64,000 nt of DNA from Prochlorococcus marinus str. MIT 1214. Its GTDB lineage: Bacteria > Cyanobacteriota > Cyanobacteriia > PCC-6307 > Cyanobiaceae. The stretch covers positions 930,001-994,000 of the forward strand of contig NZ_CP114777.1 in assembly GCF_027359355.1 (NCBI RefSeq), in the 5' to 3' direction. Under the pieces are notes generated by a model. That model searched no databases, was not told the DNA's origin, and saw only the letters and a program-made list of their open reading frames with translations. How positions within the stretch are numbered: the first letter of the stretch is position 1; the number at the start of each line of letters is the position of its first letter. Shown here piece after piece: positions 21,922 through 32,335 of this stretch. The translations under genes were made by a program, and so were the position numbers.

Positions 21922-22389
21922 ATGACTGAGATCAACTATTGGCTAATGAAAAGTGAACCTAATGCTTACAGTATTAAAGATTTAAGAGATGAAGAAGAAA
22001 CACTCTGGGATGGAATTCGAAATTATCAGGCCAGAAATTTTATGAGGTCAATGAAAATTGGTGATCAAGCTTTTTTTTATCATTCGAATACTAAGCCCCC
22101 TGGAATAGTAGGACTGATGGAAATTATAGAAACAAATTTAATCGACCCATTTCAGTTTGATGAAAGTTCAAAGTACTTTGACAAAAAGTCAAAGAGAGAA
22201 AAACCTCGTTGGGATTGCGTGAAGACTAAATACATCTGTGAGTTTAAAGACATGATTACTTTAAAAGAGTTATCTCAAACTTATACCTCGGAAGAACTAA
22301 CCTTAGTTCGCAAAGGCAATAGGCTGTCAATTATGCCAATTAAAACAGATATTGCTTTAGAGCTTCTCAAAAAACTCAAGAAGGATTAA
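21922..22389 (+). CDS. EVE-domain protein (thymocyte nuclear protein 1-like)
   Basis: 155 residues, the normal length for a stand-alone EVE domain. Diagnostic motifs are NYWLMKSEPNAYSIKDL (5-21), LWDGIRNYQARNFMRSMKIGD (about 29-49) and FFYHSNTKPPGIVGLMEI. EVE domains are PUA-like readers that bind modified bases in DNA or RNA, and in bacteria they often accompany restriction or RNA-modification systems. No partner nuclease lies nearby. It is convergent with the DUF2811 gene, with a 4-base overlap at the stops. Neighbouring mobile-element relics hint at acquisition, which is inference. Confidence 0.92.
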   Translation: MTEINYWLMKSEPNAYSIKDLRDEEETLWDGIRNYQARNFMRSMKIGDQAFFYHSNTKPPGIVGLMEIIETNLIDPFQFDESSKYFDKKSKREKPRWDCVKTKYICEFKDMITLKELSQTYTSEELTLVRKGNRLSIMPIKTDIALELLKKLKKD

Positions 22390-22655
22390 TTCAAAAAAGA
22401 GTGAGACTCAAACATATTCCCAATATAAAGACGAGTTATCAATCTGGAGCTAATACCATTTTGGATTAAAAAACCTGCAAGAGCAGCCTGCAAAAGCCTG
22501 TATTGATCCCAATTCGGATGTTCCTCAATATATCTCTTCATTGCTTGTTGAATATGCTTTGGTATCTCTGTTTGAAAACTGATTGTATCCTCTGACTCCA
22601 AAACCTCTGAGGCTTGGTCCACGCTTTTTTCTTCATCAAAATCAATATTTTTCAT
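22386..22655 (-). CDS. DUF2811 family protein
   Basis: 89 residues. The C-terminal half carries the DUF2811 pattern: TEIPKHIQQAMKRYIEEHPN, then WDQYRLLQAALAGFLIQNG. The N-terminal 25 residues are acidic and probably disordered. DUF2811 is a small cyanobacterial family of unknown role, soluble by composition. It is preceded by a long structured spacer (22656-22960) with palindromes and DnaA-box-like sites. Confidence 0.85.
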   Translation of the reverse strand: MKNIDFDEEKSVDQASEVLESEDTISFQTEIPKHIQQAMKRYIEEHPNWDQYRLLQAALAGFLIQNGISSRLITRLYIGNMFESHSFLN

Positions 22656-22778
22656 TTAAGAGACTTTCGTAAAAATTTGATCCACATGCAAACTACTCTC
22701 AAAATTAATACTGAAAAAAACTTTTCTCGCGCCGTCTCATTCTCAGACCAAGCGCTCAACTAGCTTACGAATGAAATC

Positions 22779-22831
22779 ATAAGTATTACTTATCTTTGTA
22801 TTTAGCTATCATTTGATAGCTAAATACAAAG
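22779..22831. repeat. Two abutting palindromes
   Basis: ATAAGTA-T-TACTTAT at 22779-22793 is directly followed by a 38-base palindrome at 22794-22831 with 18-base arms CTTTGTATTTAGCTATCA, a 2-base centre, and no mismatch. On the minus strand, where the upstream rpoZ unit ends, no T-run follows, so this is not a standard terminator. Cruciform or dimer-binding sites are possible. Confidence 0.8.
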
Positions 22832-22846
22832 CATAGAGAACAAGCC

Positions 22847-22899
22847 TTTTCCACAGGAGGTCGCAAGTCCTTTGCTAATCAGATTAATCCTGTGGAAAA
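22847..22899. promoter_or_regulatory. Inverted pair of DnaA-box-like sites
   Basis: TTTTCCACAGGA (22847-22858) and its reverse complement TCCTGTGGAAAA (22888-22899) are 29 bases apart. TTTTCCACA is the DnaA-box form used in cyanobacterial origins. Weaker matches lie at 22678-22686 (TGATCCACA) and 22902-22910 (reverse TAACCCACA). The palindromes just upstream add to an origin-like look, but genes typical of a cyanobacterial oriC are absent. Confidence 0.45.
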
Positions 22900-22960
22900 A
22901 ATGTGGGTTATATAGGGTTTTACTTGGGGAAAAATTTGAAAAACTTTTAGTTAAGTTCTC

Positions 22961-23341
22961 TCACAAATAGTCTGAATCCCACATTGTTCTCATTGCATTA
23001 GTCACATGATTAGTCACATTTCTAGGCCAAGAGACCTCCGCTCCTCGATTCAGTAAATCACTCGCACCCAAGATCAATTTAAGGTTCCATCCATATTGAT
23101 CACCTTTCAAAATTGCTAACCAAGGTCTACGTTCTAATTCTAGAGTTATGTCCTCATCGCCCATTAATTGGTCTTTAATTACTCTGTATTGATCAGACAA
23201 ATCTATTACCACTCTCACAAGGTTTTGCCATTCAGATTGGCTTAACTCTATTGCCCAGTCTTCACCACCTATTAGAGCAGGAAAGTTTTCTCTTGATGTA
23301 TCTCTAATTATTCTCCAACCGGGACCTTCTTTTTTGATCAC
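22961..23341 (-). CDS. DUF1818 family protein
   Basis: 126 residues matching the cyanobacterial DUF1818 pattern: GPGWRIIRDTSRENFPALIGG, EDWAIELSQSEW, LELERRPWLAILKGDQYGWNL, then SDLLNRGAEVSWP. It is a small soluble protein of unknown role. The GTG start follows the stop of rpoZ directly (TAG GTG), so the two are cotranscribed and probably translationally coupled. Confidence 0.88.
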   Translation of the reverse strand: MIKKEGPGWRIIRDTSRENFPALIGGEDWAIELSQSEWQNLVRVVIDLSDQYRVIKDQLMGDEDITLELERRPWLAILKGDQYGWNLKLILGASDLLNRGAEVSWPRNVTNHVTNAMRTMWDSDYL

Positions 23342-32304: not shown

Positions 32305-32335
32305 AATCCTTGAACAAAAATTTTGTTCAAGGATT
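32305..32335. terminator. Terminator after atpC
   Basis: AATCCTTGAACAAAA and TTTTGTTCAAGGATT (15-base arms) are almost contiguous and end in a T-run. It also lies just past the stop of the convergent PSRP-3 gene, so it can serve both. Confidence 0.9.

Follow-up and report, generated by a model that had tools for sequence, protein, structure and literature searches.

Clusters of DnaA boxes lying away from the replication origin have been described in both Bacillus subtilis and Escherichia coli. In B. subtilis, DnaA regulates sda, a small-protein gene located away from oriC and preceded by a DnaA-box cluster (PMC4447404, PMC8203912). In E. coli, DARS1 and DARS2 are also found outside oriC, and their core consists of two boxes pointing one way and one pointing the opposite way at fixed spacing (PMC5742627). 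E. coli datA and further DnaA-box clusters of B. subtilis, again outside the origin, could titrate DnaA (PMC5742627, PMC5295017). In cyanobacteria, oriC lies next to dnaN (PMC4674748), and DnaA ChIP-qPCR in S. elongatus has addressed oriC and one control locus (PMC7198777). The literature that we searched for cyanobacterial DnaA titration, the DnaA regulon, DnaA boxes and DUF2811, with most subscription papers outside its coverage, contains no description of the locus considered here and names no DnaA-controlled gene in cyanobacteria. Some cyanobacterial species replicate without any need for DnaA.

The locus is the spacer at 22656-22960 of the window (the whole stretch of 64,000 nucleotides analysed here), bounded by the stop of a DUF1818 gene and the start of a DUF2811 gene. 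Both genes are encoded on the minus strand, and DUF1818 is itself preceded by rpoZ. The preliminary description, which named these flanking genes correctly, reported an inverted pair of DnaA boxes and two weaker sites in the spacer, and all of them are present (Table 1). What exceeds chance is the close pairing of the boxes rather than the number of single 9-mers: DnaA-like 9-mers with one mismatch are no more frequent in the window than expected (26 against 31), while the 30 exact TTTTCCACA sites of the 1.93-Mb genome form pairs less than 200 bp apart only here and in front of dnaN. When the same spacer was sought in sister strains, the inverted pair was recovered. The pattern TTTTCCACA-N20..50-TGTGGAAAA occurs exactly once per genome in 26 of the 41 congeners, always with N=35 and always in this spacer, one-base variants of the pair are present in several other congeneric genomes, and a reversed-pattern control gave no matches in the 41 genomes. 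The genus alignment comprises the window and 29 relatives (30 sequences). Conservation in it amounts to 98-99% at the strong boxes, 97% at TTTTCCCCA and 92% at the tandem weak box, against 72% in the stretch that separates the two strong boxes. Directly after the DUF1818 stop, positions 22934-22960 are 94% conserved in the genus (AACTTAACTAAAAGTTTTTC, minus strand) and represent perhaps a weak terminator. A small ORF in the block at 22720-22760 was also considered and dropped by eye, as indels break the frame in several relatives.

Table 1. Features of the spacer and its flanking genes, with window coordinates; conservation refers to the genus alignment
Feature	Position	Strand	Sequence or family	Remarks
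DUF2811 gene	22386..22655	-	Pfam PF10929, E 1.6e-28	proposed target
-10-like element	22679-22674	-	CAAATT	spacer of 17 bp to the -35-like element; inferred from sequence reading
-35-like element	22702-22697	-	TTGAGA	+197 from the strong box
Conserved block (41 bp)	22720..22760			90% conserved; just upstream of the +197 promoter, upstream of DUF2811
15-mer	22780..22794		ATAAGTATTACTTAT	conserved dyad ATAAG-N5-CTTAT
38-nt hairpin	22794..22831		two perfect 18-nt arms, TT centre	private to the window strain; outside the conserved element
Inverted strong DnaA box	22847..22855	+	TTTTCCACA, exact	starts 44 bp from the start of the anchor, leaving a 35-bp gap; 99% conserved; spacing invariant
Strong DnaA box	22891..22899	-	TTTTCCACA, exact	anchor of the array; 98.5% conserved
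Weak tandem DnaA box	22902..22910	-	TAACCCACA, matches TGTGGGTTA	exactly 11 bp upstream of the anchor; 92% conserved
Weak DnaA-like box	22925..22933	-	TTTTCCCCA, matches TGGGGAAAA	34 bp upstream of the anchor; 97% conserved
DUF1818 gene	22961..23341	-	Pfam PF08848	upstream neighbour, parted from the array where gene order differs

DnaA boxes together with a palindrome in an intergenic spacer may bring to mind a replication origin, either the main or an auxiliary one, and this is how the spacer had been read at first. However, base skew, followed along 40 stretches of 20 kb sampled from the genome, changes sign at about 1.34 Mb and at about 0.34 Mb, with no switch at 0.953 Mb, where the spacer is located. 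The former switch sits at dnaN (1,337,016, 384 kb from the spacer), upstream of which TTTTCCACA and TTATCCAC[AC] boxes make up the canonical DnaA-box region. In addition, the palindrome is private to the window strain. An origin at the spacer is thus not supported, and we consider it scarcely credible. As for the palindromes themselves, the 15-mer and the 38-mer are indeed both present, but the 38-mer is not self-complementary at its centre and the two do not lie end to end, since one base is common to both. No other hairpin of the window has arms as long as those of the 38-mer, and Markov-shuffled windows give arms of only 8-11. Its alignment columns are 67% conserved over the window and 29 relatives, and the palindrome is absent from the 29 relatives, which all keep the DnaA boxes. 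Cruciform-capable DNA, proposed earlier as part of the element, therefore does not belong to it, and a cruciform role of the 38-mer was rejected on the same grounds. The left arm may be a copy of the right arm rewritten by template switching, an origin not settled by the identities of the arms to the relatives (0.50 and 0.59). At 32305-32335 of the window there is a further perfect inverted repeat, its 15-nt arms separated by a single nucleotide.

The inverted boxes might alternatively form the stem of a structured RNA or a terminator, their arms being complementary over 12 nt. Yet the ten aligned sequences that deviate in the box arms include none with a compensating change, and the boxes should therefore be regarded as DNA sites and not as an RNA stem. 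The loop, 29 nt long, is variable, and comparison with Rfam yielded no family, only a single chance match below threshold. Such an RNA is extremely improbable.

The inverted pair extends well beyond the genus. Within the family, it is present in 80 of 251 genomes, representing 28 of 59 genera, with one copy in each and nearly always with N=35 or 36; the reversed-pattern control matched one of the 251 genomes. Many family genomes without the exact pair have a strong box at the same place and a degenerate partner, and in some genera only one strong box has been kept. The order rpoZ-DUF1818-[pair] is seen in 24 of 30 fetched family loci, the remainder being divided between those that have DUF2811 without DUF1818 (three) and those with neither (three). 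Where DUF2811 is found apart from DUF1818 (G115, L077; G170, L045), the array is found with DUF2811, and in the case of a duplicated DUF2811 (G073, L074), a separate array of the same 44-bp geometry accompanies the second copy. In other words, wherever DUF2811 has moved or has been duplicated, the boxes travel with it and not with rpoZ-DUF1818. At these three loci (L045, L074, L077) the box in tandem with the strong one, 11 bp upstream of it, has the full consensus, and at most others it has CACA, while TTCCCC at the weak distal box is conserved in other genera as well. In Synechococcus-like genera, TGTGGAGAA follows the inverted box at a distance of about 170 bp; it was considered as a fourth box and rejected, since it falls where the +195 promoter discussed below has its -10 region.

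The same association holds on the scale of the class. Among genomes sampled from the class, 58 of 59 carry DUF2811, and none of the 38 genomes taken from sister classes does. Exact DnaA boxes precede DUF2811 at 24 of 27 loci in a first set and at 35 of 40 in a second. Most of these loci belong to other families, and altogether some 29 cyanobacterial families have such boxes. The arrays usually consist of two to four tandem boxes at a spacing of 21-22 bp, and in many cases an inverted TG[GT]GGA[AT]AA lies 44-46 bp further on. Upstream of DUF2811, 13.8 kb of sequence holds 58 boxes, compared to 5 in 70.7 kb on the flanks. Different families have different genes upstream of the array. A genome-wide search for tandem boxes, run without reference to DUF2811, led to the same place: 17 genomes were positive, 14 of them with a match beside DUF2811 and about 10 with one beside dnaN, while the control search had no matches. 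Judging from these sequence comparisons, the DUF2811 spacer is the Prochlorococcus version of an ancient DnaA-box cluster kept across nearly all cyanobacteria. Several observations were made in passing. Other tandem DnaA-box clusters in cyanobacteria lie beside guaA (L162, L180), an ArsA-type ATPase gene (L189) and dnaA (L168). In one genome, the second DUF2811 copy (L291, genome position 91568) also has weak boxes 21 bp apart upstream of it (ATTTCCACA, TTTTCCACT), as in the tandem arrays of other cyanobacteria. At six loci (L193, L205, L206, L208, L211, L203) neither TTTTCCACA nor TTATCCACA occurs within 1.5 kb of dnaN, so that the origin may lie elsewhere.

Which protein reads the array? One genus (g16) is particularly informative. 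In all three of its genomes (L276, L279, L280) the boxes at DUF2811 are TTATCCACA and TTATCCCCA, and the dnaN locus, read in one genome (L220), has nine TTATCCACA and no TTTTCCACA. At all other dnaN loci with several boxes TTTTCCACA is dominant. The box sequence at DUF2811 thus follows that of the species' own oriC, TTATCCACA at both in g16 and TTTTCCACA elsewhere, with one switch only. Since the DUF2811 array and oriC change together in g16, the reader of the array is very probably DnaA; with a single evolutionary switch and oriC read in one genome, this evidence is strong but not a proof. Conservation and covariation with oriC boxes taken together strongly support the earlier assignment of these sites to DnaA. 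Another protein with a DnaA-like motif might nevertheless recognise the sites, for example DUF2811 acting as its own regulator. It is a small protein adjoining its own boxes, and its N-terminal strand followed by two helices looks, by eye, like a ribbon-helix-helix. However, the predicted structure of DUF2811 has three helices at modest confidence (mean pLDDT 69), and the fold search returned no structural match in the PDB. No sequence match to a DNA-binding family was found either, and the ribbon-helix-helix assignment was rejected as unsupported by Pfam, PDB sequence and fold searches. Moreover, a different reader does not account for a box variant that follows the oriC variant. We therefore regard a reader other than DnaA as quite improbable.

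The region between the array and the gene displays regularities of its own. The promoter-like pattern TTGAC-N14..21-[AT][ACG]AAT is found there at 50 of 59 class loci, compared to 1 of 59 on the reverse strand. In most families the -35 element begins 181-184 bp after the nearest box (about +183), and in others the distance is 125-129, 152, 187 or 196-197 bp. Within the family, TTGAC occurs about +76 and about +195 from the strong box, at some 40 loci each, and most genera have both promoter-like sites. In the genus of the window, 21 of the 30 sequences, the window among them, retain the +195 site as TTGANA (+196 to +198). The +76 promoter is not recognisable in this genus, and the -35 element is weak. 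A -35 element at +76 would place the inverted box with its centre about -63 from the start site, an activator-type position. Sites at about -63 are typical of activators that touch RNA polymerase. The distance between array and promoter in most families, about 150-190 bp, is unusual for a simple activator or repressor.

The most plausible explanation, to which we would assign a probability of roughly two in three, is that the spacer represents a DnaA-controlled regulatory region of DUF2811, predicted to work like that of sda in Bacillus. Its basis is a set of direct observations, namely the boxes, their conservation, the covariation with oriC, the attachment of the array to DUF2811 and its constant distance from promoter-like sequences, from which we infer that DnaA binds the array and regulates DUF2811, with activation more likely than repression. 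In the proposed mechanism, the two weak boxes, in tandem with the strong box at approximately multiples of 11 bp, and the inverted strong box 44 bp further on would be bound by DnaA cooperatively. A change in the amount of DnaA or in its ATP/ADP state would then alter DUF2811 transcription from a promoter at a fixed distance. Such an arrangement suggests that DUF2811 may be switched by the replication machinery.

The main rival explanation reverses the direction of control: the array, as a datA- or DARS-like locus, would act on DnaA by titration, ATP hydrolysis or ADP release and thereby time initiation at oriC, the link with DUF2811 being secondary. DARS is characterised by the promotion of ADP release from DnaA, and datA by an IHF-dependent stimulation of DnaA-ATP hydrolysis. 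A box cluster away from oriC, with one strong inverted pair per genome at strictly fixed spacing, is in line with this idea, and so is the combination of two tandem boxes and one inverted box, as in the E. coli DARS core. The distance to dnaN is also similar in six congeneric genomes (about 384-398 kb). This similarity, however, may reflect shared gene order, and across families the distance to dnaN varies. More importantly, a locus of this type would not account for an array that remains in cis with DUF2811 when gene order changes or the gene is duplicated, nor for its fixed distances to the promoter. Because of this linkage and these distances, regulation in cis is favoured over DnaA titration, and we consider a datA- or DARS-like role unlikely.

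An array that occurs at one gene, DUF2811, in almost every cyanobacterial family, and does so more regularly than tandem boxes occur near dnaN, makes a single-locus experiment possible and offers a candidate function for the orphan family DUF2811. We can only speculate, with considerable doubt, that DUF2811 might be an ancestral class-wide output of DnaA, a small initiator-switched protein that feeds back on replication or ties replication to growth. In other families, the gene that comes after DUF2811 often encodes a UPF0093 or FAD amine-oxidase family protein (L137:1891-2481, L146:1684-3108, L153:1897-3171). We take these neighbours (UPF0093 being HemJ-like) to be of the protoporphyrinogen-oxidase type, and a link between DUF2811 and tetrapyrrole synthesis is one possibility.

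Compared with the systems outlined at the beginning, the DUF2811 array shares something with each. With the cyanobacterial oriC next to dnaN (PMC4674748) it has in common the box sequence TTTTCCACA and, in g16, the same variant, but it is situated elsewhere on the chromosome, among different neighbour genes and with no skew switch. Like datA and the B. subtilis clusters, it lies outside the origin and could titrate DnaA (PMC5742627, PMC5295017). The essential boxes of datA, however, share one direction (PMC5742627), whereas the two strongest boxes of the window are inverted; arrays outside the family are mostly tandem. In the case of DARS1 and DARS2 (PMC5742627), the likeness is one of orientation pattern, and the DUF2811 array differs from them in staying with one gene and its promoter and in having mostly tandem boxes outside the family. 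The closest counterpart is sda (PMC4447404, PMC8203912), where a DnaA-box cluster likewise lies upstream of a small-protein gene and away from oriC. Unlike sda, the putative control array described here accompanies a phylum-specific gene and has been conserved through the whole class at fixed promoter distances.
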